Shown one piece after another: positions 325 through 62,287 of a DNA stretch of 64,000 nucleotides. A program made the position numbers and the translations under genes. This DNA is from Corbicula japonica (Eukaryota; Mollusca; Bivalvia; Venerida; Cyrenidae). Under the pieces are notes generated by a model that was not told the origin of the DNA, searched no databases, and saw only the letters and a program-made list of their open reading frames with translations. The stretch spans positions 682,001-746,000 of the forward strand of contig JAZAYU010000037.1 in the NCBI GenBank assembly GCA_038501625.1, in the 5' to 3' direction. Every line of letters begins with the position of its first letter. Positions within the stretch are counted from its first letter, which is position 1.

Positions 325-20672
<20,348 letters not shown>

Positions 20673-22238: not shown

Positions 22239-23789
22239 CCCTTTCCTCCATATACACACCTTTATTGTGTGGGTGAACAGTTTAGATCCAGATCAGCCAG
22301 CACATCAATGCCGTCTGATCAGGATCTAAACTGTTCGCTTTTTAGCTCACCTGAGCCATAGGCTCATGGTGAGCTATTGTGACCCGTCTTTGTCCGGCGT
22401 CCGGCGTCCGTCGTCCGTCGTCCGTCAACAATTTCCTTTAAACAACATCTCCTCTGAAACCACTGGATGGATTTTAACCAAATTTGTCCTGAAGCATCCT
22501 GGCACTGATGTCTACAAAAGTTGTTCAAATCATGACCACAGGGTCAAGGTCAAGGTCACTGCTGCTAAAAATAGAAATTCAGTCTTTGCTCAATTACTTG
22601 AGTTTGCTTAAGCCTATTGACTCCAAACTTGGTGTATGGGTAGCTTATATCAAAAGGCAGCTTGGGGTTGCTACCCAGATGTCTGTGATCAAGGTCAAGG
22701 TCACTGTTGCTAAAAATAGAAATTCGGTCATTGCTCAATTACTTGAGTTTGCTTAGGCCTATTGACTCCAAACTTGGTATATGGGTAGCTTATATCAAAA
22801 GGCTGCTTGGGGTTGCTTCTCAGATGTCTGTGATCAAGGTCAAGGTCACTGTTGCTAAAAATAGAAATTCAGTTTCTGCTTAATAACTTGAGTTTGCTTT
22901 GGCATATTGACTCCAAACTTGATGTATGGGTAGCTTATATCAAAAGGCAGCTTGGAGTTGCTACCCAGGTGTCTGTGATTAAGGTCAAGGTCACTGTTAC
23001 TAAAAATAGAAATGCAGTTTCTAATTAATAACTTGAGATTGCTTTGGCCTATTGACTCCAAACTTGGTATATGGATAGCTTATATCTAGAGGCAGCTTGG
23101 GGTTGCTACCCAGGTGTCTGTGATTAAGGTCAAGGTCACTGTTACTAAAAATAGAAATTCAGTTTCTACTTAATTACTAGAGATTGCTTTGGCCTATTGA
23201 CTCCAAACTTGGTATATGGATAGCTTAAATTAAGAGGCAACTTGGGAAAGCTACCTACGTGTCTGTGATCAAGGTCAAGGTCACTGTTGCTAAAAATAGA
23301 AATTCAGTTTCCACTTAATAACTTGAGTTTGCTTTGGTTTTTTGACTCCACACTTGGTGTATGAGTAGCTTATATCAAACAGCAGCTTGGGATTGCTACC
23401 CAGGTGTCTGTGATCAAGGTTAAGGTCACAGTTGCTAAAAATAGAAATTCAGTTTCCACTTAATAACTTGAGTTTGCTTTGGCATATTGACTCCAAACTT
23501 GGTATATGGGTAGCTTATAACAAGAGACAAATTGGGATTGCTACCCATGTGTCTGTGATCAAGGTCAAGGTCACTGTTGCTAAAAATAAAAATTCAGTTT
23601 CTGGTTAATAACTTGAGTTTCATACTCAGGTGAGCGATTCAGGGCCATCATGGCCCTCTTGTTATTTGTTAGGTTATTTGAGCAAAATGCGACCAGTGCA
23701 GATCCTGATCAGACGGCATGGATGTGACGGCTGATCTGGATCTACACTGGTCGCACTTGCGTAAAAATGTGTTTATATGGTGGAAAGGG
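22239..23789 (+). mobile_element. piggyBac-like MITE, copy 17, split by a pearl/HINE-like insertion
   Basis: Left half is 22239-22343 and right half about 23664-23789. TTAA lies at 22235-22238 and 23790-23793. The break falls in the CTTTTTGATTTATTAGG linker of the family, so the interrupted copy can be read straight across. Confidence 0.9.
22345..23661 (+). mobile_element. Pearl/HINE-like non-autonomous element with 145-bp tandem core
   Basis: The 5' end GCTCACCTGAG is complementary to CTCAGGTGAGC at 23625-23635. A 3' hairpin GGGCCATCATGGCCC lies at about 23642-23656, six bases from the end. The centre has eight units of about 143-147 bp, each with (A)AGGTCAAGGTCAC. It sits in a T-rich site (CTTTT to TTATTTG). 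Subterminal inverted repeats, a 3' hairpin, a tandem core and a T-rich target fit the bivalve pearl/Helentron-associated (HINE) plan. A TTA duplication is the alternative reading and would mean a TIR transposon. Confidence 0.75.
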
Positions 23790-29700: not shown

Positions 29701-30506
29701 CAAAGAACGTTCATTGGAACAACCCATCGGGTCGATTTGAACATATTAAACAGCTTTAATTTTGTGTGATGAATATTTTTTACCATTAAAAAGTAAGAGT
29801 TGGTTTTTAACCATGAATTATTCATTGCCTCTCTGCTGGTCTACGTAAAGAGGTCTGTAATAGTTTATGTAGCAATTCTTAACAATTTTCAATGTGTATG
29901 CTGAATAGATGAAAAAAGATGTTTTCAAAGAGCATTACTTACATAAATTCAGATACACTGTTGGATCTAGATACAGTAAGCGAAACATGTTATATATAGA
30001 CTTCGATTGAAATTTCAGAGTGTTTAAATTAATAAATAGTATAAATAAAAATTTTAATCGTTTAAATTGCAACCCAAATTACAGAAAAGAGACAATCTTC
30101 GTTGGATACAGTAGCGTTTCACGCGGCATTTCTGGCCGCAAGCTTGATGCATCCAGACGTAGGAGCCAGCATTGTGTTTCCTGATGTCTCTCTTAATATT
30201 GGCAATGGTTACCATAGTAGCCACGGACTTTTCACCGCCCCTAGGGCAGGAGTTTATATCTTTTCGGCAAGTCTGATGGCTCGCAATCAGCAAGTAATTC
30301 AAGCGTCAATAGTAAAGAATGGTCAACAACTAAGTCGAATATTCGTACATAGTGTAGATGAAAACTATGACCAAGGTTCTGCAACCGTGATAACGCTGTT
30401 AAGTGTAGGGGACGATGTGTGGGTAAGGTATGATTATCCTCCGAATGCTGGAATTTGGGGAAACGATTTTACAGTTTTTACAGGCGTTCTTGTTCTAGCT
30501 ACTTAA
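26715..30506 (+). CDS. Secreted C1q domain-containing protein 1
   Basis: Three exons: 26715-26835, 28796-29254 and 30085-30506 (TAA), with GT-AG borders and phase-1 introns, giving 333 residues. Exon 1 starts at ATG 26715 and encodes a signal peptide (hydrophobic VNFPVFVVCLVLRAVAAS). Exon 2 is a coiled coil (EQSARIRLLEQRAEF onward) followed by a basic hydrophilic stretch. Exon 3 is a complete C1q/TNF-like jelly-roll domain, from VAFHAAFLAAS through GLFTAPRAGVYIFS to the terminal FTGVLVL. In bivalves such proteins are extracellular, usually trimeric, and act as lectin-like immune recognition factors; that function is inferred from the family. An AATAAA lies at 30580-30585. The second gene at 41.4 kb has the same architecture. 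Confidence 0.9.
27425..27955 (-). mobile_element. R repeat copy (Penelope-like terminal region) in C1q intron 1
   Basis: Reverse-strand copy matching 56172-56600 and 57000-57185. It covers the GTGCACCAACCTCACACTTG, CCAGTGGCAAA/TTTGCCACTG and AATATGCATATCAGGAATG segments. Weak frames here belong to the repeat. Confidence 0.8.
29255..30084 (+). other. Intron 2 of C1q gene 1
   Basis: Bounded by GTGAGT and TTACAG. AT-rich, with no recognised element inside. Confidence 0.75.
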
Positions 30507-31169: not shown

Positions 31170-31294
31170 GGGGGCAAGTGTAAGGTAAGTGCACCCTAGA
31201 ACCTGGTTAAATCCCCAATGGAGAATTGTTTTGCCACTGACAGTTTAAATGAGGTAACCCCTCGGGTTCTTTCTCGTTAATTGTTTGTGGTGTC
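31170..31294 (+). mobile_element. R repeat copy, left border of the tandem duplication
   Basis: Contains GGGGCAAGTGTAAGGTAAGTG, CACCCTAGAACCTGG, TTGCCACTGAC, GGTAACCCCTCGGGTTCT and GTTAATTGTTTGTGG, the conserved R-repeat blocks. More diverged than the copies at 32.7 and 34.2 kb. Confidence 0.8.
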
Positions 31295-31659
31295 TATTTT
31301 GAACTTGAGCATTTTATTACCCATTCTCCCTTTTCCTCTGTAATTGTTGGCTGGGTGGAGAGGCTGTGTCTTCTGGATGTAGCCATTCCTGATATTTCAG
31401 TTCTAAAAAAACAGTTACCGGTATATTGAGGACTGAACAAAATTGTTGCAATTTTACATGCAAATCGTTCTCGTTTTGGTAAATGTTTATCATTAATTGA
31501 TGGAGACACATAATCATTATTTATATTTTCCTTAAATATTTTGACCTGCTTAATACACAAAAAGTAAATTACTGACGATTAAATCTATTCTCTAGCTGTA
31601 CATGTTGAACGCCAAAAAACCTGTGCAATCTTGGTGCCGTTTTGAACCTCTTCCAATAT

Positions 31660-32530
31660 TTATCCCGGGTCGCATAGCGGCTGGGAGATATAGGAATGGT
31701 CTTCGTCCCTCCGTCCGTCCGTGCGTCCGTCCGTCTGTCCGTCCGTGCGTCAGTCCGCCTGTCCGTCCTTCCGTGCGCGCAAATTTCGTGTCCGGTCCAT
31801 ACCTTTTCAACCCCTAGGAATTTCATAAAACTTTAGTCAACTGTTCTCCCCATGAAGACGACGTGCAGTACCAATGTTCCAACCTGGCTGGCTCAAGGTC
31901 AAGGTCACCAGTGGTGTTTGAAGATTTGAACCATGTACTTCATGTCCGGTTCATATCTTTTGAACCCCTATAAGGAATTTCATGAAACTTTAGTCAAATG
32001 CTCAGCCCATGAAGGCAATGTGCAGAACCCATGTTCCCACCTGGCCAGCTCAAGGTCAAGGTCACCAGTGATGTTTGAAGATTTAAACTATGTATTTTGT
32101 GTCTGGTTCATATCTTTTGAACCCCTAGAATGAATATCATGAAACTTTTATCAAATGTTCAGCCCATCAAGATGATGTGCAGATTCAAGATGATGTGGCT
32201 CAAGGTCAAGGTCATTGAATATTTGAACTATTGTATTTTGTGTCCGGTTCATATCTTCTGAACCTATGCAATGAATTTTATCAAACTTTAGTCAAATGTT
32301 CATTCCACCAAGATGATGTGCAGAACCCATGTTCCAACCTGGCCGGCTGATGGTCAAGGTCACCAGTTGTCTTTGAAAGTTCATATTTAACCATGTCTTT
32401 CATATTTGCTCCATAACTTCCAAACTGCTGGAGATATATTTGTTAATTTGCAATTAAGCATCCATAACCTTTCCAACATTCATGCATGCGGCGTAGGATA
32501 TTGCTGTCGTTCCGACTGCCTTGTTCTTTA
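31660..32530 (+). mobile_element. Pearl-like element with GTCC microsatellite and ~155-bp tandem core (unit A)
   Basis: CCGGGTCGCATAGCGGCTGG leads into a (GTCC)n tract at about 31705-31772. About four 150-157-bp units follow, with AAGGTCAAGGTCA at 31896, 32053 and 32205 and GGTCAAGGTCACC near 32353. Microsatellite next to a tandem core is the pearl layout. The exact ends are uncertain. Confidence 0.6.
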
Positions 32531-33164
32531 CTCAAAGGTTCACGTTTAACTCGCTTTATCTTGTTTTCTTCAAGAAGAAATGTTGTGACACAGACAATAG
32601 TTATCAATTATTCCTCAGGGCACAGATAGCTTTCATTTGAAAGACAGTTTGAGTAACCGAAGCAAATATATGAAGCACTTCTCCAAAATCGCTTATAGAA
32701 TTAACCTGTTTTAAACCCTCAAGTGGCAAAATGTTTTGCCACTGACCATTCCAAGGCGGTAACCCCATGGGTTCTCTTTCGTTAATTGTTTGTGGCGTCT
32801 ATTTTGAACTTGAGCATTTTATTACCCATTCTCCCTTTTCCTCTGTAATTGTTGGCTGGGTGGAGAGGCTGTGTCTTCTGGATGTAGCCATTCCTGATAT
32901 TTCAGTTCTAAAAAAACAGTTACCGGTATATTGAGGACTGAACAAAATTGTTGCAATTTTACATGCAAATCGTTCTCGTTTTGGTAAATGTTTATCATTA
33001 ATTGATGGAGACACATAATCATTATTTATATTTTCCTTAAATATTTTGACCTGCTTAATACACAAAAAGTAAATTACTGACGATTAAATCTATTCTCTAG
33101 CTGTACATGTTGAACGCCAAAAAATCTGTGCAATCTTGGTGCCGTTTTGAACCTCTTCCAATAT

Positions 33165-34035
33165 TTATCCCGGGTCGCATAGCGGCTGGGAGATATAGGA
33201 ATGGTCTTCGTCCCTCCGTCCGTCCGTGCGTCCGTCCGTCTGTCCGTCCGTGCGTCAGTCCGCCTGTCCGTCCTTCCGTGCGCGCAAATTTCGTGTCCGG
33301 TCCATACCTTTTCAACCCCTAGGAATTTCATAAAACTTTAGTCAACTGTTCTCCCCATGAAGACGACGTGCAGTACCCATGTTCCAACCTGGCTGGCTCA
33401 AGGTCAAGGTCACCAGTGGTGTTTGAAGATTTGAACCATGTACTTCATGTCCGGTTCATATCTTTTGAACCCCTATAAGGAATTTCATGAAACTTTAGTC
33501 AAATGCTCAGCCCATGAAGGCAATGTGCAGAACCCATGTTCCCACCTGGCCAGCTCAAGGTCAAGGTCACCAGTGATGTTTGAAGATTTAAACTATGTAT
33601 TTTGTGTCTGGTTCATATCTTTTGAACACCTAGAATGAATATCATGAAACTTTTATCAAATGTTCAGCCCATCAAGATGATGTGCAGATTCAAGATGATG
33701 TGGCTCAAGGTCAAGGTCATTGAATATTTGAACTATTGTATTTTGTGTCCGGTTCATATCTTCTGAACCTATGCAATGAATTTTATCAAACTTTAGTCAA
33801 ATGTTCATTCCACCAAGATGATGTGCAGAACCCATGTTCCAACCTGGCCGGCTGATGGTCAAGGTCACTAGTTGTCTTTGAAGGTTCATATTTAACCATG
33901 TCTTTCATATTTGCTCCATAACTTCCAAACTGCTGGAGATATATTTGTTAATTTGCAATTAAGCATCCATAACCTTTCCAACATTCATGCATGCGGCGTA
34001 GGATATTGCTGTCGTTCCGACTGCCTTGTTCTTTA
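33165..34035 (+). mobile_element. Pearl-like element, duplicated copy (unit B)
   Basis: Exact positional duplicate (offset 1,505) of the element in unit A, with a few substitutions. Confidence 0.6.
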
Positions 34036-34224
34036 CTCAAAGGTTCACGTTTAACTCGCTTTATCTTGTTTTCTTCAAGAAGAAATGTTGTGACACAGAC
34101 AATAGTTATCAATTATTCCTCGGGGCACAGATAGCTTTCATTTGAAAGACAGTTTGAGTAACCGAAGCAAATATATGAAGCACTTCTCCAAAATCGCTTA
34201 TAGAATTAACCTGTTTTAAACCCT

Positions 34225-34425
34225 CAAGTGGCAAAATGTTTTGCCACTGACCATTCCAAGGCGGTAACCCCATGGGTTCTCTTTCGTTAATTGTTTGTGG
34301 CGTCTTTTTTTAATTTGACACACTTAAAAACATGCTCTCTTTTCCTCTCTTCTTTTTCGCTGCGTGGGGAGACTGTGCTTTGTGTGAGTGGCGATTCTTG
34401 ATATGCATATTTCACTTTTATCGAC
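34225..34425 (+). mobile_element. R repeat copy abutting LINE-A
   Basis: GTGGCAAAATGTTTTGCCAC hairpin, GGCGGTAACCCC, TTAATTGTTTGTGGCGTC and TGATATGCATATTTCACTTT are all present. After about 34425 the sequence leaves the repeat, which gives the likely 5' boundary of LINE-A. Confidence 0.8.
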
Positions 34426-35999: not shown

Positions 36000-38900
36000 G
36001 ACAGCGGAGAAAAGTATGGACTGTCCATTTTATCATGGAATGTAGAAGGTTTAAACAGCTGTATAAGCGATGAAGATTTCATTAATTTTGTTGTTAATTT
36101 TGATCTTATATTTACGTGTGAAACGTGGCAAAAGAAAAATAATTCTTTTATTTTAGATGGCTATGAAACGATTTCAGTACCTAGAAAACAGAGCATACAA
36201 AAACCATCTAGACGTGGTCATGGCGGAATTTGTTTGTTTTATAGAAAATGTTTGAAACAAGGAATTATCTTAGTTGAAAAAGATGATTGTGGTTTTTTGT
36301 GGATCAAACTTTGTAAAGATTTTTTCCATACAGAGTATGATATTTACATCTGTTTTGCTTATATCCCGCCGAAGACATCGCCATACTTTAATGACCACGA
36401 TATAGGGTTTTTTGAAGTTCTTGAACAAAAAATTCGCCATTATAGCGACTATGGTAAGGTCTGCGTCATGGGTGATTTAAATGCTCGTTGTGGGGAAAAT
36501 TTTGATTATCTTGAAGGTTGTAGCTTTTTTGAAAAATTTATCGATGTTATTGATCCGGAAAATAACGGTGATATTAATTGCGATTTACCGTACAGATTTT
36601 CAATGGATAATGTAACAAATGATTCGGGCAATAAGCTTCTCGACATTTTACGTTCGTGTGATCTTAAAATTGTTAACGGACGCATTGGGGATGACGCAGG
36701 AGTAGGAGGTTATACATATATGTCATCTAACGGTAATAGCTTAGTTGATTACGCCCTCTGCTCTTACGAATTATTTCCATACATAAGTGAATTTATAACT
36801 CACGATCTACAGTCTTGTTCTTCTCACGCACCAATACAATTAAATTTTACATTCGAATTTTCCATAAGGGCCCCAGAGAATATTTCATACGAATATAAGC
36901 AAATAATATGGGACAACGATAAAGCGTTGTTATTTCGATCAGCTATTCTTAATGAAATACCTTTAATTTCAAATATTGTAGAGAACGTTATCTCGTCAGA
37001 TACAGATATCGAAATTGGTATAAATAATATCTCTAATTGTTTATATGATAAAGCGTTCAATTGTTTTGGAAAAATAATAAAAGTTAACGCAAAACAGAAT
37101 GTAAAGGGGAAATATAAAACTGATTGGTATGATCACGATTGCGAAGTTGCGCGAAGGGATTTTAATTCGGCAAGTAAACGATATAGATTATATAGATCAG
37201 GTAGTAATTTTGAATCTTTGATAGAAAAAAGAAGAGCTTATAAATTTGCTAAGCGTAGAGCGAAAGCGCGTTTTAATCTCAAACAAAAGAATAGATTACA
37301 CGAATTAGCTAATCACAAACCTCGATCATTTTGGAAAGAAATAAAAAAGTTTAAAAAGAAAAATGTAAACAAAAGTAGCATAAGTAAAGAAGAATTTTTC
37401 AACCATTTTAAAGATTTATTTTCAAACGATGATATTTTTGTTAATAACGATGTAGAAAGAGATGTAACTTTGAGAAATTTAAATCAAAATGTACATGAAC
37501 TAGATAAAGATTTCGATATTATGGAGGTACAAAAAGCTATTTTTTCACTGAAGAAAGGTAAAAGCTGTGGCTTGGATTTATTAAATGCTGAAATTTTTAT
37601 TGAATGCGCTGATATACTCTCACCGATTTTGTGCAAACTTTTCAATTATATGTATGCTCATGCTATCTATCCAGTTAATTGGACTAAAGGCATGATTGTG
37701 CCTATACCTAAGAAAGGAAATTTAGACGAAATAAATAATTACAGGGGAATAACACTTTCAAGTATATTTTCAAAAATATTCTCAATCATTTTAGATAATC
37801 GATTAAAGTTATGGGCTGAAAGTAACAATTTATTAAATGATTTTCAATTTGGGTTTCGTAAAAATAGAAGTACTACTGATTGTATATTTGCATTAACTGC
37901 CATTATTGACAAAGTTTTAAATTATGAAAAGAAGAAGCTTTACTGTGCATTTGTTGATTTCAAAAAAGCATTTGATTTAGTATACAGAAGTGGAATATGG
38001 TTTAAATTAATGCATTGCGGGGCTTCAACTAAAATTATTAAAATGTTGAAAGTGATATATGAAAATGTCAAAACTTGTGTCAAAATAAACCATCATGAAA
38101 ATACTGATTTTTTCGACAGTTACACTGGTGTAAAACAGGGCGAACCGTTATCGCCTCTTTTGTTTCTGTTTTTTATAAATGACATGTATGATTTTATTAT
38201 TGATGGTATTACAGATGTGTTCACAATTGATGATATAAGATTATTACTTCTCTTGTTTGCAGATGATACTGTACTTTTTTCGTACACAAAAGAAGGCTTA
38301 CAAATACAGTTGAATAAATTACATAGTTATTGTAAAACATGGGGAATTACTGTTAATACCGAAAAAACTGTGATAATGCTCTTTAAGAAAGGTAATAGAC
38401 CAGAAGAGTTTGATTTATTTTATGATAATGTAAAACTAAATGTTGTAAAAGAATTTACTTACCTTGGTGTCACTTTATCCTCAAATGGTTTATTCAATAA
38501 AGCCCAAAAAAGATTGTCCGACCAAGGAATTAATGCTCTATTTGCATTAAATTCACTTTTTGATTCAGTAGAACTTGAAATATCTGACAAGCTAAAATTA
38601 TTTGATTCCATGATATTACCTATTTTATGTTACGGTTCTGAAATATGGGGTTTCAATAAATCTCTTGACATCGAAAAAGTCCATTTAAAATTTCTGAAGC
38701 AAATTCTATCAGTCCGTCCACAAACTACGAATGCATGTGTATACGGTGAACTAGGTCGCTTTCCCTTATCCGTTGTAAGACAAATTCGAATGATAAAATA
38801 TTGGTATAAAATATGTAAAACACCAGATACACTATTATTTAGATTGTATAACATGAAAAATGATCAAGGAAGATTTATTAATAGCTGGACGTTAAATGTC

Positions 38901-39428
38901 CATAGATTGCTAGATAATATTGGTTTTAATTATCTTGTAGACAAGAATACACTGTGTTTGTATGATATTAACTGTGTTGTGCAAAGAATTTATGATATTT
39001 ATGTCCAAAACTGGTTTTCTGAGATAGACAATAGCAACAAATTGACATCATATAGACAATATAAAAAATCGTTTGAGTTCGAAAAATATATCTCATGTGT
39101 TACTAACTCGAAACATCGTATCGCTTTGACTAGATTTAGATGCTCCGCTCATAGACTTTTAATCGAAGAGGGACGATATAGAAATATTCCTAGAAATCAT
39201 AGAATTTGTATAAATTGCAATATGAATTTAATTGAAAACGAATATCACTTTTTGCTAGTATGTCCAAAATATAGAGAACTAAGGAATAAAATTTTACCTC
39301 GTTATTATTGCTCGTGGCCGAACATTAATAAGTTTATTACATTATTAAGTTCTAACAATGCTTCTTGCCTAAAGAAACTAGCAAACTATATATATCTAGC
39401 AAATAAAAAACGTGAAGAAGCAGCTTAA
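36000..39428 (+). CDS. LINE-A ORF2: endonuclease-reverse transcriptase
   Basis: Open from the codon after the ORF1 TAG to TAA at 39426-39428 (1,142 codons), in the ORF1 frame. APE endonuclease: SILSWNVEG at once after the stop, CETW, MGDLNAR at about 36468, and SSHAPI in place of the usual SDH. Reverse transcriptase: RGITLSSIFSKIF, FGFRKNRSTTDC, FVDFKKAFD, GVKQGEPLSPLLF and the catalytic FADD at 38256-38267. The C-terminus has a CINCNMNLIENEYHFLLVC zinc-binding motif. It has no ATG before 36468, which is already inside the endonuclease active site, so independent initiation is unlikely. Confidence 0.92.
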   Translation, partial: DSGEKYGLSILSWNVEGLNSCISDEDFINFVVNFDLIFTCETWQKKNNSFILDGYETISVPRKQSIQKPSRRGHGGICLFYRKCLKQGIILVEKDDCGFLWIKLCKDFFHTEYDIYICFAYIPPKTSPYFNDHDIGFFEVLEQKIRHYSDYGKVCVMGDLNARCGENFDYLEGCSFFEKFIDVIDPENNGDINCDLPYRFSMDNVTNDSGNKLLDILRSCDLKIVNGRIGDDAGVGGYTYMSSNGNSLVDYALCSYELFPYISEFITHDLQSCSSHAPIQLNFTFEFSIRAPENISYEYKQIIWDNDKALLFRSAILNEIPLISNIVENVISSDTDIEIGINNISNCLYDKAFNCFGKIIKVNAKQNVKGKYKTDWYDHDCEVARRDFNSASKRYRLYRSGSNFESLIEKRRAYKFAKRRAKARFNLKQKNRLHELANHKPRSFWKEIKKFKKKNVNKSSISKEEFFNHFKDLFSNDDIFVNNDVERDVTLRNLNQNVHELDKDFDIMEVQKAIFSLKKGKSCGLDLLNAEIFIECADILSPILCKLFNYMYAHAIYPVNWTKGMIVPIPKKGNLDEINNYRGITLSSIFSKIFSIILDNRLKLWAESNNLLNDFQFGFRKNRSTTDCIFALTAIIDKVLNYEKKKLYCAFVDFKKAFDLVYRSGIWFKLMHCGASTKIIKMLKVIYENVKTCVKINHHENTDFFDSYTGVKQGEPLSPLLFLFFINDMYDFIIDGITDVFTIDDIRLLLLLFADDTVLFSYTKEGLQIQLNKLHSYCKTWGITVNTEKTVIMLFKKGNRPEEFDLFYDNVKLNVVKEFTYLGVTLSSNGLFNKAQKRLSDQGINALFALNSLFDSVELEISDKLKLFDSMILPILCYGSEIWGFNKSLDIEKVHLKFLKQILSVRPQTTNACVYGELGRFPLSVVRQIRMIKYWYKICKTPDTLLFRLYNMKNDQGRFINSWTLNVHRLLDNIGFNYLVDKNTLCLYDINCVVQRIYDIYVQNWFSEIDNSNKLTSYRQYKKSFEFEKYISCVTNSKHRIALTRFRCSAHRLLIEEGRYRNIPRNHRICINCNMNLIENEYHFLLVCPKYRELRNKILPRYYCSWPNINKFITLLSSNNASCLKKLANYIYLANKKREEAA

Positions 39429-44300: not shown

Positions 44301-45487
44301 GATACGCGAAGTTACGTAAATAGGTAAAGTTGCAATAAGTTATTAACTTAAAATCAATTTACAAAGATGAATGATATTCCTTATAATTAAGTCTGTTCAA
44401 CTTTTTTTGTTAAATCGACAATGCATTTGAACTTTAAAAGCAATTTGAGATCTTTGATTTACACTTTTAACGCTACGCTTTATTACCGCTTTTAAACCGG
44501 AACTACCCAATCAGCAAGGGAAACCACTCTCAATGGGAGGTAACTCAGTATATCGGTAGGCCCCCATTTACGGGCATTCCATCTCAGTTGTGAATATGTG
44601 TCAATCATAAAAGCTCAATAAAATTTAAGCACACATGGTGGCATATGTTAATTTCATATTTTTATTGATTTATTAGCAAAAATCGATCAACGCTGAACAT
44701 TTTATTAAAATCGATTGGTAAGAAAAGAGTTAACACTGTTCACTGACAATTTGAAATAAATAATAAGAGTGCTGTATACAATGTACACAATTTTAGCATA
44801 AAGAAGTTAAGTGTTGAAACTGACTTGAAACGTAATTGTTTAAATTTAAGGATCTGCAAGTCTCTAATTTAGCAAAATATGTTATCAGGTCTACGATTTT
44901 CAATGACGTTCCGCAAAAGCTTGATGATAGACAAACGCCGATTGAAATCTAAAACAAAGAGCAGAGCTACTTGTTCAATATTAAAACGCTTTCATACTCG
45001 TTTATTTATAGATAAATAGACTTTTGATAATTCAATTCAGATATATTTTTAAGTGGTCCACAGGGAGAAACGAGTTGCGACAAATAACGACTTGGTGGCA
45101 TTTCACGCAGAGGTAACCCCTCACTACAATGAACACTTTGGAACAAATGACAATATTAAGTTTGACAATATTCTTCTTAACCTCGGAGGAGGCTATCACA
45201 ACCAGCATGGCTTGTTCATCGCTCCAAAACATGGACTCTATCTTTTCTCGGTAACTGTCGCTGTTAAATATAATGAATGGGCATGGTGTGATGTTCTGAA
45301 GAATGGAGTAAGAATGGTAGGTGTGCTTGCCCAAGCAAACATTAACTTCGGCAGCGGTTCCACTACCTTTGTCACCTTACTCGACGTTTCAGACGAAGTG
45401 TGGGTCGTGCATACAAATCCACCAGACGGAAGTTTCTGGGGTAATGGACACACAAGTTTTACAGGAGTGCTCATTTCTGAGACATAA
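41361..45487 (+). CDS. Secreted C1q domain-containing protein 2
   Basis: Three exons: 41361-41481, 41943-42473 and 45054-45487 (TAA), phase-1 introns, 361 residues. Exon 1 is exactly as long as in gene 1 (121 nt) and ends in the same ALENRG-type sequence after a signal peptide (SISSVVVWFVLVCGV). Exon 2 is a long coiled coil (RIMLLEQRVKLSEERVQQL onward) with an acidic tail. Exon 3 is the C1q domain (VAFHAEVTP, GLFIAPKHGLYLFSV, terminal FTGVLISET). The exon 3 acceptor was set at TTTTTAAG 45046-45053 because the closer CAG at 45038-45040 would break the frame. AATAAA lies at 45519-45524. It is a paralogue of gene 1. Function is inferred as innate immune recognition. Confidence 0.88.
42645..43372. 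repeat. Inverted-repeat (fold-back) element in C1q-2 intron 2
   Basis: Arms at about 42645-42785 and 43235-43372 share CACGTGACTT, GATCAGATAAAGA, TTTCTCAGTAATTTCT-type and CTTCGGGTGGC blocks in inverted orientation. An R repeat fills the loop. Confidence 0.8.
42865..43160 (+). mobile_element. R repeat copy in C1q-2 intron 2
   Basis: Carries TGTGATACGAGAACCTGTTG, GGTGCACCCTAGAACCTGG, the CCAGTGGCAA/TTGCCACTG hairpin, GGCGGTAACCCCTC and GATATGCATATTTCATTTTT. Confidence 0.85.
43410..44575. mobile_element. Probable 1.17-kb non-autonomous element with imperfect TIRs
   Basis: The left arm (CCTACCGATATAC, GAGTTA, GGGTAGTTCCGGT, about 43413-43502) is inverted at about 44493-44574 (ACCGGAACTACCC, GTATATCGGTAGG). 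The interior is AT-rich and non-coding. No clear target duplication. Confidence 0.65.
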
Positions 45488-45847: not shown

Positions 45848-47882
45848 GGAAACACAGTGTCTAAGCGTACAGTTAAGCGAAACGGAAGTTGCTGATCTGT
45901 ACGCTGATGATCACATAGTTGCTTAGAGAAAAAACTGCGACATCGCTTTATTTATAGGTAAATAAACCAAATTTAATGTGCATTTGGACAAAAATATTCC
46001 TGTGGTACGTACAACGTTAATTGTTAGTCCTGCTGTGATCATATAGACTTAAAGGAATGGTTAGTATTGTTATAATCCATCATCGTTCCCAACTCGATCA
46101 GTGAAAATAGGAGCAAAATATTGGACAAAACGGGACATTTTGGGTTCAAATGTCTTTGTGTAAATATAATTTGGACCATATTTGTGTTTGTATGGGAGAA
46201 AATTCATTTATTCAACTTGTGTACTTCGTTGACCTGAGTTTGAACGACTTAGCAACGAGAAAATGATACTTTCTTTATGTCACTGTAAATGATAAGACTG
46301 TACGCATAGTTGCAACTGTACGCGATCGTTAGTTGTTAACAGATGCGTAACATCTGTACGCATAGTTGTCAAACAGATAATTAACAATTTATGATTCCAG
46401 TTAATGCTTTCTTATTATATCGACCGGTTATCATTTTAGCTTCAGTTAACCTTAATAATTCATGCACGAGAACATGAAAAATGCATATTTTTCAACAAAT
46501 TTGCTCATTCTTTTAATAATACAATTATATAAACAAATAACTGATCTTGGCTTCTGATTCAAATTCAGATTTGTTTTTAAATCTCTTGTTAGCTCTTCAT
46601 GAAAGGAGGCTTGAAAAAAACGACTACAGTCCAACCGAGCTATATCAGTGGTAAGACCGTGTAAGATATGTAGAGGCCCGCTGTAATGTTTTCATTTATT
46701 CTCTGAAGTGCGAACAGTAGAAGCCATGATATAGCTGGACAAATACGCGTTAGTACTTCAACCATAGTTTCTAAAGAATTCATAAAATGCTCTAATCAGA
46801 CATAATCCCTGAAATCTACCAATGAAAGTCGGCCAAAATGAAATCCAGCTCGACATTTTAACGACCTTAAACATGAAATTCTTAGCAGTTGCAGACATAA
46901 TTGTAGACTTACTTAACTCAGTCACGAAGTGGTGGATTTCCAAAATCTGAAACCACTTAATGGAATTTTTCTGTCAAAGACCAGATTGTTAAAGTCATTA
47001 TGCCATTGGATAATATTTGTGCATAATGTATATTTTTGCCAACACCGGCAGGGATTTCAGCAGGTTTATACTAGGTTTTATTTAATGTCACTAGGTTTTA
47101 TTTAATGTCACAATCAGAGGATTTAGGATTTCTAGCAATTATCGGTGTCTTATTTGCAAAGTGTACCAATTCGTTCATATGGTTCAACAGTAAATCAGAG
47201 TAAAAAAACCTATCAATTTATAGCTCAAAACTTGCTTGTCAGTTCTAAAATGTTATCATATAAGGTTTTATTTTTGATAAATAATACATTAGATTTGGTT
47301 GATTCCTTTGATTGATTCCTTTAACAAGTTCTTGCTTCACTGATGCTTTTCAGTTGATCAGTATATGATGCACTTATAATCGCAACTGTTCGTACAGTCT
47401 GACATTGAAGTACTGCAACTTTGCGTACAGTCTTGTCGCTTTCGGTTGCTGCACAGAAAGACTATTAACTCGATGCTTATTCTTTCAAGCACCGTTCAAC
47501 GCAATATGTTAGCATTGGAAATGATTTTTCTTTCACGGGAAGTCAAATACATACCATTCCAATATATACATTATAAAAAATGAGGTCACAAATGCAGATT
47601 TTCTCCACTCTTTTTCCCCATTTTGTACTGATCAAGTGTGAAAAGATTACAGATTTCAACTTAACTAGCCGTTAGTTCAAGGCTTCAAGATCGCAGTAAT
47701 ACTATTAATCAACGATGTTCTTATTATAAAAATAATTTCTGCAAAAAGCACGTTTAATTTGAATATATTTTACAAATAAAAAGCCGATGTCGCATGTTTT
47801 TCTGTAAGCAACTATGTGATCATCGGCGTACAGATCAGCAACTTCCGTTTCGGTTAACTGTACGCTTAGACACTGTGGGAAA
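45848..47882. mobile_element. 2,025-bp Transib/RAG-like non-autonomous transposon
   Basis: The element is 45853-47877 with 5-bp GGAAA duplications at 45848-45852 and 47878-47882. TIRs begin CACAGTGTCTAAGCGTACAG, match at 71 of the first 73 positions, and decay over the next 30 or so. CACAGTG is the consensus V(D)J RSS heptamer, and a 5-bp duplication is typical of Transib and RAG-like transposases. There is no RSS-type nonamer at a 12- or 23-bp spacing. No transposase ORF is present, so it would need help in trans. Inverted subterminal copies of CTGTACGCATAGTTG occur at about 46299, 46354 and 47380-47440. A 20-bp direct repeat lies at 47070-47110. Confidence 0.85.
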
Positions 47883-50228: not shown

Positions 50229-51714
50229 TAAACTGACACGATTTAAAAACGCAAAAAGTACTTTAACAGAGGATATATTCCACATAGCCGATGTATAACC
50301 ATGTATAACTGTGTACTTAACTAGTGTAGACATAACAGAAAAGAAAATAACCTTTTAAGTCTTGAGTTTTGCTTGGACTGACGTCTCATTGTGCCTAAAT
50401 GCACGTTGAGTCAATAGCGCGTATGACCACCGTTACTGTTCAACACGGCCTGCACTCTACGTGTCATGGATGTGCACAAATTGCGGTATACGCGCCTTGG
50501 AATATTGTTCCATTCCTCCAGGAGAGCCTGTGACAACTCGTCGACGGTATTAGGGGCATGAGGACGTTGACGTAACCTGCGACCGAGCTCGTCCCACATA
50601 TGCTCAATTGGATTACAATCAGGGGAACGAGCCGGCCATTGTAACACCGGGACATTGTTTTGCTGTAAGAACTGTCTTGTGATTATTGCTGTATGCGGAC
50701 GAGCATTGTCATGCATAAACGTTAGCCCCTGACGTTGACGGAAGATGGGCACGACGTGGGGTCGAAGGATTTGGTCGATATACCGTCTTGCGTTCAAATT
50801 GCCATTACAAACAACCAGGTCAGACTTAAAATTGGTATTGATCGCTGCCCAGACCATGACGCCCCCACCGCCGTATGGATACACTTCACGTACACAATTG
50901 TTTGCAAAGCGTTCATTACGACGTCTGTAGATTTTAACCCTCCCATCAGCATGGTGAATATTAAACCTGGACTCGTCGCTGAAAACGATATTGTCCCACT
51001 GCCGTCGGCGGTTGTTTAAAGCCCAACGTTGTCTCTCAAGGCGATGACGTTGGGTGAGCCTGGCACCGCGCAGGACGACGACAGTGAATCCCACGTTCTC
51101 TCAGGCGATTTATCACTGTGTCACGATGTATAGACCGTCCACGATTACCAACCATGGCATTTGCAGTAGACTGAGCCGTCGCAAATCTGTTGCGTAAGTG
51201 ACGTTGTCGTATATAATTGTCTTGACGTACACTTGTTACACGTGGCTGACCGGGGCGTGGGCGGTCTGCAGTTGTTCCAGTAGCATTTACACGTGTCACT
51301 AACCTTGTAATCGTCGATTCGGCGACATTAAACCGTCTAGCAACCTCTGTTTGCGTAGCCCCGCCGGCCAAAAGCCCCAAAGCTTGGTTCCGTTGTGCAA
51401 AAGTAAGCCTCGGCATTTTGCAAACGAAAAATGTCCGTAGTTTGTGTTTGATTTTCAGAAAGTAAATCAATGTGCCAGTTTACACACAAAAAATCGCATT
51501 GATTTTCCGCGTGGTTTAAGTGCACGAGACGCACGTGCATTTTGTGAAGGGCGGCTCAAATGCCCGAGAGGTTTACATTTGGCACGACAAAATTGGTGGG
51601 GCGTGAAGGGTATACATTGTATCATTTATGTCCCCAAATATGGTGCCGATCGAGGCTGCAGGAACAGAATAGCTGATGAAAATGCCTTTTGCGTTTTTAA
51701 ATCGTGTCAGTGTA
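50229..51714 (-). mobile_element. Tc1-like transposon with TA duplication
   Basis: The element is 50231-51712 (1,482 bp), with TA at 50229-50230 and 51713-51714. TIRs ACTGACACGATTTAAAAACG pair perfectly for about 25 bp. It carries one transposase gene on the - strand. It sits inside the 6.9-kb segment, so it is the younger insertion. Confidence 0.95.
50411..51416 (-). pseudogene. Tc1-family DD34E transposase, one frameshift
   Basis: Starts at ATG 51416 (MPRLTFAQRNQAL). The N-terminal part has an HTH (ATQTEVARRFNVAESTITRL) and a second DNA-binding half (RDTVINRLRERGI). The frame is lost near 51060-51065 by a single-base shift. The catalytic part then runs to the stop at 50411: FSDESRF (D1), FMHDNARPHTA (D2), SPDCNPIEHMWDEL (E), with exactly 34 residues between D2 and E. 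In function this family excises and inserts at TA. Apart from the one shift, the frame is clean. Confidence 0.93.
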
Positions 51715-52869: not shown

Positions 52870-55095
52870 GATTCCCGGGGAAAGGATCCTGCTTCTGACC
52901 TGAAAGACAATTATTGTATAAAGTTTGGATGTTTAAACGTCTGTGGACTTAAGCAACGCTTAAATTATCCGGAATTTGTAGATTTTGTTAGCAGTTTCGA
53001 TGTGTTTTGTGTATCTGAAACCCACCTTGGTAGCTTTGATATTGTCGACATTAATGGTTATACTTTTCTTTCAAAACACAGAACACAGTCTTATAGGAGG
53101 AAATCGGGTGGCATTGGCATATATGTCAGAGATGAGATATCCCCGTTCGTAGAGATTTTACAAAACAATTCAGAATATATTCTTTGGGTAAGCATTAGTA
53201 AGGAATTAACCAAACAAGATGAAAATACCATTCTTGGGTCAATCTATCTCCCTCCCGAAAGTTCGAGGTTTTTTAATGAAGATCATTATAGAGATTTTGA
53301 GAACGAAATTTCGCAGTATTGCAATATTTATAAATACGTGTATCTAGCGGGCGATACAAACAGCAGAGTTGGCACACTCCGAGATTTTATTTACTCGGAT
53401 TCTCATATTAATGAAATCTTTAATATTGACCTAGACTTGCAAAACCAACTTGATAAATATATATTATTGAATAACCTCTCCATCCCTCTAAACAGAAATT
53501 CAAAAGATTGCAGAACTAATACACAAGGCTTCCGCCTAATTGACATATGTAACAACAAAACTTATTTTTTATTCAATGGTAGATTATTCAAAGACAAAAA
53601 CACAGGTTCGTATACATTTAGAGACAAATCGGTCATAGACTATGTTTGCTCGACTGCAGACTGCCTTGAATATGTTACTCATTTTGAAATATTGGAAACA
53701 GATTCGTTGTTTTCAGATGGTCATTATGCCTTATCATGGAATGTAAAAACACATTCTTACCCATATAAAACCGGATCTCAAGCTAATAAAAAAGGTCGCC
53801 CAGCCTGGAATCCTGAAAAAACACAAACTTTCATTAATAAAATAGATATCGATCAATTAGAAATTTTAAAATCTCAATTGTTTACATATCCGCAGTCACA
53901 ACTAACTATTAATAATGTAACGCGTGATTTAGAAACAATTTTTAGAAACGCTGGAGCCGCAACCTTTACCGATAAGACGTTAAATTATAAACGTAGTTTT
54001 CCAAATAATAAACCTTGGTTCGGTCCGAAATGCCATGCGGCTAGGCAGAATTACCACGAGGCTAAAGAAGTATATAACAAATACCGTAATAATGATAATA
54101 AAGTAAGACTTCGTAACGCCAGTAAACAATATAAACGTACAATGAACTTTTATATTAAACAAAATAAACAAATATCCGCCGAACAACTAAGAGCAATGAA
54201 CGATAAAAATCCCAAGAAGTATTGGAAATTTCTGAACCAATTAAAACCCAAAACAAAAGATAGCCCAACACCATCATTAGAAGAATTTTATGACTACTTT
54301 AAGGAAATTAATAGAAATAATGTTGATGATAATAGATTTAATAACGAAATACTGACAAATCTGATTATCAAAACTCGACCGAATCCCTCAACGCGAAAAT
54401 TACTCAGGATGAAATAAAAAAATGTATCTCAAAACTTCAAAATGGTAAAGCCGCTAGCCCTACTGATGACATTTTAAACGAGTATATCAAATCCACACAG
54501 AATCTCCTACTGCCATTTTACTGCAAACTTTTTAATTGCGTGCTCGACACAGGAATTATCCCGTCTAATTGGCTAGTAGGAACGATAAAACCTATATTTA
54601 AAAATAAAGGTGACCCAAAAGAACCGAATAATTATAGACCTATCACTATTTTGAGCTGTCTCGGTAAACTTTTTACATCGATATTAAACCATCGATTAAC
54701 AACATTTCTAGAAGAAAACAATATCTTAGATGAAAACCAAGCCGGTTTTAGGAAAGGTTACTCATGTGCAGATCATATTTTTGCTCTTCATGTGCTAATA
54801 GAAATTCTTAAAAAAAGGAAGCAAAAACTCTTCTGTGGATTCGTAGACTTCTCTCAGGCCTTTGACAAGGTCTGGAGGGCAGGTTTGTGGCATAAACTGC
54901 TGCAAAACAACATAAATGGTAATTTCTTTAAAGTAATACATAGCATGTACAATAATATAAAGTCTTGTATTTCACATAACGGCTCACTATCAAGCCCATT
55001 CTTATCCGAAATCGGAGTGAGACAAGGCGAAAATCTTTCTCCTGTTCTTTTTTCATTGTTCCTTAACGATTTACAGACTTATATGCACACCAGTC
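52870..55095 (+). pseudogene. LINE-B ORF2 (endonuclease-reverse transcriptase), frameshifted and 3' truncated
   Basis: In frame with ORF1 after the TAG: GCLNVCGLKQR, FCVSETHLG, AGDTNSR, VIDYVCS and SDGHYALSW are endonuclease motifs. No ATG occurs in frame until about 54140. A frameshift near 54385-54395 moves the frame. RT then continues with NNYRPITILSCLGKLF, AGFRKGYSCADHIFAL, FVDFSQAFDKVW and GVRQGENLSPVLFSLF. Similarity ends at about 55095, before the catalytic FADD box, at the edge of an inverted repeat. The copy is therefore dead. The RT is related to but clearly distinct from LINE-A. Confidence 0.88.
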
Positions 55096-55096
55096 T

Positions 55097-55425
55097 AAAA
55101 ATCAGTGTTAAACTTGTTGCCTCTATAACCATTTTTTAATAATACTCATTGAAAATAATTTTTTTTTGGGGGGGGGTGGGGGTGGGGGGCGGGGGTGGTT
55201 GTTAAACTTCACCAACAAGCCATGTATTTTACCTGTAATCTGATTATAACACTTAAAATATTAAATGTAGTCGATTTTAAGTGGTTTGAGGTAAACACTG
55301 TAGATGTGGTTTGGGTTATATCACACTCACTATGTGTCATACTTATTTATGGCCAGTCATGTCATTTACTAAAACTTTGATGTTTATTTTGCTACAGAGG
55401 CAACAAGTTTAACACTGATTTTAAA
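55097..55425. repeat. Short inverted repeat truncating LINE-B
   Basis: AATCAGTGTTAAACTTGTTG-CCTCT at 55100-55125 is inverted at about 55396-55421. A poly-T/poly-G stretch (55159-55198) lies in the loop. Confidence 0.75.
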
Positions 55426-60956: not shown

Positions 60957-62231
60957 TCAATCTAAATCAGTAGCTTTTATCCAGCTGTTAAAAGTCCGTG
61001 GATAATATTTCCACTTCACAAAATATTGTTTATTGCGTCCTTTCCCCCGAGTTTTTAACACTTTTTCCACTTTCCATGTCTGATCGGGATCAATGTTTAC
61101 TTTCTGCAGTTCACTTTGATAAAAAGTTCCCTTGATGTCTTCGTCCCGTAAATCGCGTAGTCTGTAGATGGGTAATATCCCTCTGTGATAACGTTTAGAT
61201 ACTTTAAACACTTCACCGGAGTATGTTTGATCGTATGCTCGGGTAAACACGGTTTCCAGATGACTGATACGTACATAGTCACCTACTTTAAATTTGAATG
61301 TTTTAAGTTTTGTATTCGTCTTTCCATATCTTGGGTTTTGCGCGAAATAAGTCGCTAGTCGCACTTCCTCTTGATTGTTGTCCTTGACATCGGCGGGTCT
61401 CATGCCAATAGTTCTATGATAGGTATTGTTGTAATTATCGGCGATGTCTTGTAACACAGGTAAATAGGCGGTCGACTCTTTGTACGCGAAAAAGCGATTG
61501 ATTCGGGTCTTTATAGTTAAAATTGCCCTCTCTGACGTTGATGCTTTTGTCTCATTTTGGGTAGGAAAATAAATAACTTCTTCTTTCTTCATGAGATCTT
61601 GTACTGTCTTTGCTTTAAATTCTTGGCCTGCAAATAAATATGAATGGATTGTAAAGCGTTTGTCCAATAGTTACAAAATGAAGCAATATTATAACAATCA
61701 TGTTAACAAAAATATCTTCGAAATAATTAAAAAAATATTCCCATGAAAATATTAAATAAATGATTTATTTAATAAAAGCATAATTTGCATAAATATACCT
61801 TGGTCAGTGATCAGTTTGTCTGGTGATCTTTTTGAAATGTCGAAAATTTTCCTGAACGCTTTAGCTACTTCTTCGCCCGTTTTGTTTTTCAATGGTTGTA
61901 ACCACACGTACTTGGAGAATGTGTCTATCACCAACAAGATGTACTTGAAACCTTTGTTCCAGTCAGCAAATTTCGCCATATCGATTAAGTCAGCCATCCA
62001 CAAATCGTCTCTACCCGAGCTTACAACGTGGTTTCTTTGAAATCGCCTTCTAATAGGTTTATGTAGACTGTAGGATTCTTGATTATGCAAAAATTGGCGT
62101 ATTCTGTGTATACCAATGTTGAATTTTCCATCGTCTTTCGCCACTTTGTACAGTTTTTGTGGACCGGCAAACCCAGTCGGATGTTTAGGATCATAATATA
62201 TTGTTTTTAGATAATCCTCCCAATGCGCCAT
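60957..62231 (-). CDS. Polinton/Maverick-type integrase with chromodomain
   Basis: Two exons on the - strand: 62231-61799 and 61627-60957, with an intron bounded by GTATAT and TTGCAG that restores TDQGQEF across the junction; 367 residues. ATG 62231 gives MAHWEDYLKTIYYDP. The DDE core has DLWMADLIDMA (D1), LITDQGQEF (D2) and TKASTSERAIL (E). The region FKVGDYVRISHLE is the C-terminal SH3-like part, and the last about 55 residues (WKVEKVLKTRGKG, YFVKWKYYPRTFNSW) are a chromodomain. Retrovirus-like integrases with chromodomains insert Polintons. It appears intact and lies next to an ATPase gene of the same element type. Confidence 0.88.
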
Positions 62232-62287
62232 GTGTACTGTACTGAGTTCACAACATAAATGAATGAAACAAATCAACTAGTAAGACT

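Follow-up and report, generated by a model that had tools for sequence, protein, structure and literature searches.

A probable high-copy family of non-autonomous transposons with RSS-heptamer tips and AT-rich 5-bp target duplications in Corbicula japonica

Introduction

How far can an exact V(D)J RSS heptamer and a 5-bp target-site duplication (TSD) place a transposon, and where do they cease to do so? The question is raised by a 2025-bp element with CACAGTG...CACTGTG termini in the window analyzed here, a stretch of 64,000 nucleotides from Corbicula japonica. A first-pass annotation, made from the sequence alone, had read it as a fairly recent, non-coding relative of Transib/RAG-like transposons, mobilized by a partner of that kind. 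The family to which the element belongs keeps both the heptamer and the 5-bp TSD, and its AT-rich targets misfit the reports on RAG and Transib. If the partner were RAG-like, this would be a case of high-copy RAG-like mobilization in an invertebrate with decayed RAG1-like genes; if it were otherwise, a different transposase would have arrived at the same tip.

Results

Extent, termini and arms of the element

As presented in Table 1, the CACAGTG...CACTGTG termini were confirmed at 45853-47877, and so was the GGAAA duplication on both sides, the two flanks being equal at length 5 alone when lengths from 1 to 11 were tried. The element starts with CACAGTGTCTAAGCG and ends with the inverse of CACAGTGTCTAAGCG, while the tip sequence characteristic of the family ends is CACAGTGTCTAAG. 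When the window was scanned with the 26-base tip, allowing up to 3 mismatches, the two element ends were the sole matches, with 0 expected. The element had been described as non-coding, in agreement with the absence of a Pfam match in the six frames of the window copy with stops read as X. The initial observation is strengthened and the window element is confirmed as a genuine transposon copy. A single sub-threshold snoRNA match in Rfam was rejected. A C1q-domain frame (45053-45487, +) adjoins the element at 0.36 kb, and another lies at 30066-30506 (+). With a host exon as query, 24 relatives were obtained; the only named one, from a land snail, was 30% identical.

Table 1. Positions of the element, its repeats and arms in the window, and of the RAG1-like loci elsewhere in the genome.
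Feature	Position	Strand	Remark
Non-autonomous TIR transposon, family A copy	45853..47877	+	2025 bp, CACAGTG...CACTGTG
Left target-site duplication GGAAA	45848..45852	.	same as 47878-47882; only k=5 fits
Right target-site duplication GGAAA	47878..47882	.	flank comparison
Outer left TIR, ~75 bp	45853..45927	+	near-identical to right end
Outer right TIR	47803..47877	-	near-identical to left end
Inner left arm	45928..46314	+	diverged from right arm, 55-78% by window
Inner right arm	47414..47802	-	diverged
CTGTACG, TIR motif 1 (reads CGTACAG)	45866..45872	-	invariant over four arms
CTGTACG, TIR motif 2	45897..45903	+	inverted pair with motif 1
CTGTACG in conserved inner block AAGACTGTACG	46298..46304	+	longest invariant inner run
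CTGTACG	46316..46322	+	motif scan
CTGTACG	46354..46360	+	motif scan
CTGTACG, right side	47391..47397	-	motif scan
CTGTACG in right arm's conserved inner block	47424..47430	-	motif scan and four-arm alignment
CTGTACG, right TIR motif 2	47827..47833	-	motif scan
CTGTACG, right TIR motif 1	47858..47864	+	motif scan
Decayed RAG1-like locus L080	C16:5569200-5579199		RING frame upstream of match
Decayed RAG1-like locus L081	C611:30400-40399		
Decayed RAG1-like locus L082	C24:2681400-2691399		

The terminal inverted repeat (TIR) had been given as 73 bp with two differences. The 2 mismatched positions in the outer 73 bp were found again, but the arms pair far beyond this length, over approximately 464 bp, and BLAST aligned element positions 1-462 with 1562-2025 at an identity of about 70%. 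By windows of 40 columns, arm identity was 97.5% and 95% in the first two, 55-78% in the later ones up to column 480, and 55% and 52.5% in the last two, past column 480. Local alignment of arm parts 80-280 and 280-560 gave scores of 70 and 53, compared to 20 and 24 for the largest of 300 shuffles, respectively. The extent of the arm alignment and its identity profile therefore indicate that the TIR is long and old, and that only its outer part has been held alike.

The two TIR differences had also been taken as the sign of a fairly recent insertion, and this dating fails. Position 25 is a G in 14 of 15 left ends, window copy included, at loci selected because they resemble the left end of the window copy, and a C on the window's right end. 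T53 is uncommon among the same left ends, being present in the window copy and L005 (2/15). Since G25/C25 is a standing difference between left and right, the 2/73 mismatches cannot date the insertion. Divergence from the family majority is a better measure of age than TIR differences. After alignment of the window copy with 31 other two-ended copies (1958-2186 bp), the 32 full copies were 0.7-3.2% from the majority sequence, and the window copy was at 2.2%.

Family A in the genome

The exact 24-base tip was found at 591 places in the genome (297 forward and 294 reverse; 1,069,688,145 bases scanned), and at 0 for the reversed-pattern control. Tips with other letters at positions 31-33 were found at 12 places compared to 2 in the reversed control, and most of these are, by eye, indel forms of the same tip.

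We analyzed two samples of copies. The first consisted of 40 copies, the best matches to the left 133 bp of the window element (1113 candidates, best 40 scored). Both ends were present in 34 of them, and 29 of these 34 had an exact 5-bp TSD; the one-ended copies (L034, L035, L050, L056, L057 and L063) are truncated, interrupted or partly read. For the second sample (n = 20), copies with two exact tips were picked, none of which was in the first one; here, the TSD was exact at 5 bp in 16 copies, had one mismatch in five in 3 and was 4 bp long in 1. Tabulated over both samples, as the first-pass annotation had proposed, exact 5-bp duplications flank 45 of the 54 two-ended copies. One mismatch was observed in L065, L088, L112 and L120, whereas L049 and L053, with a lost or degraded right end, have no exact 5-bp TSD. 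Duplications of another length were restricted to L064 (6 bp), L070 and L096 (both 4 bp) among the 54. Since the tips and the exact TSDs recur in two samples, both key signs noted at this locus hold for a family. Two of its members, L059 and L058 (C16:9957592 and 9960548), share an orientation and are separated by under 1 kb; their 5-bp TSDs differ, being GAATC and GTTAT, respectively.

A chance inverted repeat or an assembly artefact is refuted as an explanation by the 591 tips, the differing flanks and the 5-bp TSDs in two samples, and its probability is negligible. A TIR, a TSD, many copies and no recognizable transposase were all found, as in non-autonomous TIR DNA transposons. Very probably, therefore, we are dealing with a high-copy, non-autonomous family of cut-and-paste DNA transposons of approximately 2.0 kb, with a related subfamily. 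It shares with MITEs and other non-autonomous TIR elements the lack of recognizable coding, the high copy number and the TIR plus TSD. Typical MITEs are shorter than about 2 kb, and the family differs from them by its length of about 2 kb and its arms of ~464 bp. No description of the family in print was found in a literature search by topic words.

Family B and the conserved blocks of the arms

As for tips standing singly, 37 stretches of 500 bases were compared. Thirty were family A arms, with a partial or weaker match in L127, L130 and L155; in four others (L131, L145, L147 and L152), the likeness ends after 35-98 bp. The last three (L148, L150 and L158) are 88-92% identical to one another and only about 70% identical to family A, and we call them family B. 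The single family B copy delimited, on contig C1, measures 2248 bp with the TSD TTAAT on both sides. Over the 1787 of 2248 bp scanned, no Pfam family was above the cut-off, the best match being a weak one to DUF2204 (E 0.087, below the cut-off). A search with the family B arm gave 1168 candidates, of which the best 40, itself included, were mostly 79-93% identical.

When four arms from families A and B were aligned, 68 of the first 80 columns and 141 of the next 395 were invariant. In the inner arms, the longest stretch free of variation, AAGACTGTACG, covers 11 columns (permutation p 0.002).

CTGTACG repeats and proposed mobilization

CTGTACG or its complement CGTACAG occurs 9 times in the element, out of 13 in the whole window; a random 7-mer would be expected in the element about 0.25 times, both strands counted (2 x 2025 / 4^7). 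Internal inverted copies of a 15-mer, CTGTACGCATAGTTG, had been suggested as extra binding sites. Four are indeed present, two exact on the + strand and two on the - strand with 1 and 2 mismatches, but by themselves they are not far above chance (1.25 expected; 4 reached in 3 of 100 shuffles). The repeats and the conserved blocks point to CTGTACG as a likely transposase site.

No autonomous partner was found, and the copies read have no recognizable transposase. Longer TIR pairs (4739, 3125 and 2531 bp), considered as autonomous copies, were family A with nested insertions. At E 0.001, protein searches gave no relative for a 104-aa open frame in L053 and nothing for the TIR frames. Pattern scans of viral contigs and of genome contigs gave 0 matches; the IMG/VR matches L001-L003 have 24 bases in common in a phage-gene-like context and were taken as chance. 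Mobilization in trans thus follows by elimination, as no coding copy was found. To this extent the earlier idea of a partner-mobilized element is supported; a RAG-like or Transib identity of that partner is possible. One family A copy carries an insertion (L084:1287-2412) with frames that resemble, by eye, the start of a Harbinger-type gene, and a 104-aa frame of this insertion had no Pfam match.

We propose that a transposase supplied in trans would bind the CTGTACG sites, both the inverted pair of the outer TIR and the inner sites, approximately 445-510 bp from each end. It would then pair the two ends and cut at the 5' C of CACAGTG. The ends would be joined to a 5-bp staggered target in an AT-rich palindrome, C-RTWAY-G, and gap filling would produce the 5-bp TSD.

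Target preference

The targets of the first sample (n = 29) were compared with 7-mers from the same flanks. We observed R at position 1 in 24/29, T at 2 in 17/29, A or T at 3 in 26/29, A at 4 in 15/29 and Y at 5 in 23/29, with a C just before in 12/29 and a G just after in 10/29. G/C accounted for 28 of the 145 TSD bases compared to 49 expected, and 0 of 5000 resamples was as low. The second sample showed these preferences less strongly (R1 9/16, T2 7/16, A4 7/16 and Y5 12/16; G/C 19/80). When both samples and the family B site were pooled (n = 46), G/C made up 47 of 230 bases, at least 3 G/C were present in only 2 TSDs and CANTG was fitted by none; the bases just outside were C at -1 in 19/46 and G at +1 in 18/46. 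Overall, the preferred target of the family is an AT-rich palindrome, C-RTWAY-G, in which RTWAY is duplicated.

CCANTGG is the target reported for Drosophila Transib, and the hopper motif is clearly GC-rich (PMC3276498); a GC bias of targets is reported for ProtoRAG, Transib and vertebrate RAG (PMC8289069). Few studied Transib/RAG families enter into our comparison of targets. The targets given for hobo and 1360 are GTNCGNAC and GTTNAAC (PMC3276498). Against these published targets, RTWAY is closer to the hAT/P type, though the outer C...G recalls Transib.

Candidate partner transposases

A transposase of the Transib/RAG1 superfamily, with a CACAGTG tip truly related to the RSS heptamer, is one of the two leading options for the partner and is possible, short of probable. 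The CAC...GTG tips and 5-bp TSDs, found family-wide, fit with it: CMCT-clade elements make TSDs of 2-5 bp and as a rule end in CA..TG (PMC12730594), and a 5-bp TSD is listed for Transib hopper and transib2 (PMC3276498), which also have CAC-type tips and a C...G outside the target, as in CCANTGG. RAG-like elements once entered this genome, as fossils indicate: a search with PF12940 (RAG1), a profile that may miss Transib, gave 7 fragments at 3 loci (14/14 candidates scored). Stops were present in 5 of the 7, and the one fragment compared with PDB was of RAG1L type (best 6b40, 1.9e-26). However, no family TIR was found in the 10-kb stretches around these three loci, and no transposase was linked to family A ends. 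The RTWAY target, with CANTG in 0/46, departs from the GC-rich targets of Transib/RAG, and Transib comparison also sets apart the long diverged arms with their CTGTACG repeats. With protostome RAGL elements such as oyster RAGL_B, the family shares the 5-bp TSD and the first 3 bp, CAC; beyond CAC, the tip fits the RAGL consensus CACTWMCAAACKTYKBB at only 3 of 14 positions, with 6 expected by chance, and has TCT at positions 8-10 in place of an A-rich block. In the first 60 bp, an RSS nonamer was matched with 3 mismatches at best. As for molluscs, a survey identified one Transib element, which weighs against this partner, and its curated library has 133 consensus sequences for hAT (PMC10294476); Pinctada imbricata is reported to have RAGL elements that are non-autonomous (PMC7204232). 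The Transib/RAG attribution made at first is thus weakened by the targets and by the tip beyond CAC.

A hAT5-like hAT transposase, whose BED-type DNA-binding domains would sit on the CTGTACG repeats, is the other leading option and only slightly less likely than the first. hAT5 also has 5-bp TSDs (PMC12730594), and the T/A symmetry of RT..AY resembles hobo GTNCGNAC (PMC3276498) and Hermes nTnnnnAn (PMC10368747). The CTGTACG sites find a parallel in Hermes, which requires ~220 bp at either end and in which two of the subterminal repeats form a quasi-palindrome bound by BED domains (PMC10368747). This parallel is partial, as the Hermes paper considers the use of sites further inside unlikely and describes right-end repeats without BED contact (PMC10368747). 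hAT genes are abundant in the genome: the best 150 of 544 candidates scored as matches, and about 45 of the 150, by our count, have an intact frame no shorter than 350 aa. None was linked to the family, no hAT gene being found by eye within 5 kb of a tip when these 150 of 544 candidates were compared with 100 of the 591 tips. Tips of hAT elements generally follow the rule YARNG, which the tip CACAG breaks at position 3 (C).

CACTA elements have subterminal repeat arrays, to which the CTGTACG repeats may be likened. The CAC...GTG tips of the family, shared with EnSpm/CACTA (PMC12730594), would also suit another CMCT-clade transposase (CACTA/EnSpm, Chapaev or a relative) with an unusual 5-bp TSD. 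We consider such a partner improbable: the EnSpm/CACTA examples have 3-bp and 2-bp TSDs (PMC12730594), and the family shows exactly 5 bp in 45/54 copies rather than the 2-3 bp of CACTA/EnSpm. An undescribed transposase is unlikely too. That such a lineage would bridge two plans, with the CAC tip and 5-bp TSD of the RAG/Transib side and the subterminal repeats (CTGTACG) and RT..AY target of the hAT side, has a small chance of being true.

Other features of the window

Several other repeats and mobile elements were observed in the window. A Tc1/mariner-type element (50411-51479, -) has two overlapping frames, with HTH and DDE_3. A 1142-aa open frame at 36000-39428 (+) is LINE endonuclease/reverse transcriptase-like by eye, and a second, broken LINE-like frame is located at 52870-55139. 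Another mobile element (60957-62276, -) combines a chromodomain frame with an integrase-core frame that falls slightly short of its Pfam cut-off. A dispersed repeat whose inverted units resemble GATCCAGATCAG, together with 61/63-bp and 145-bp tandem arrays, was observed at 4200-25400, 15856-16583 and 22401-23715. Finally, a tandem duplication of ~1505 bp at 31219-34312 contains GTCC-rich and 157-bp repeats.
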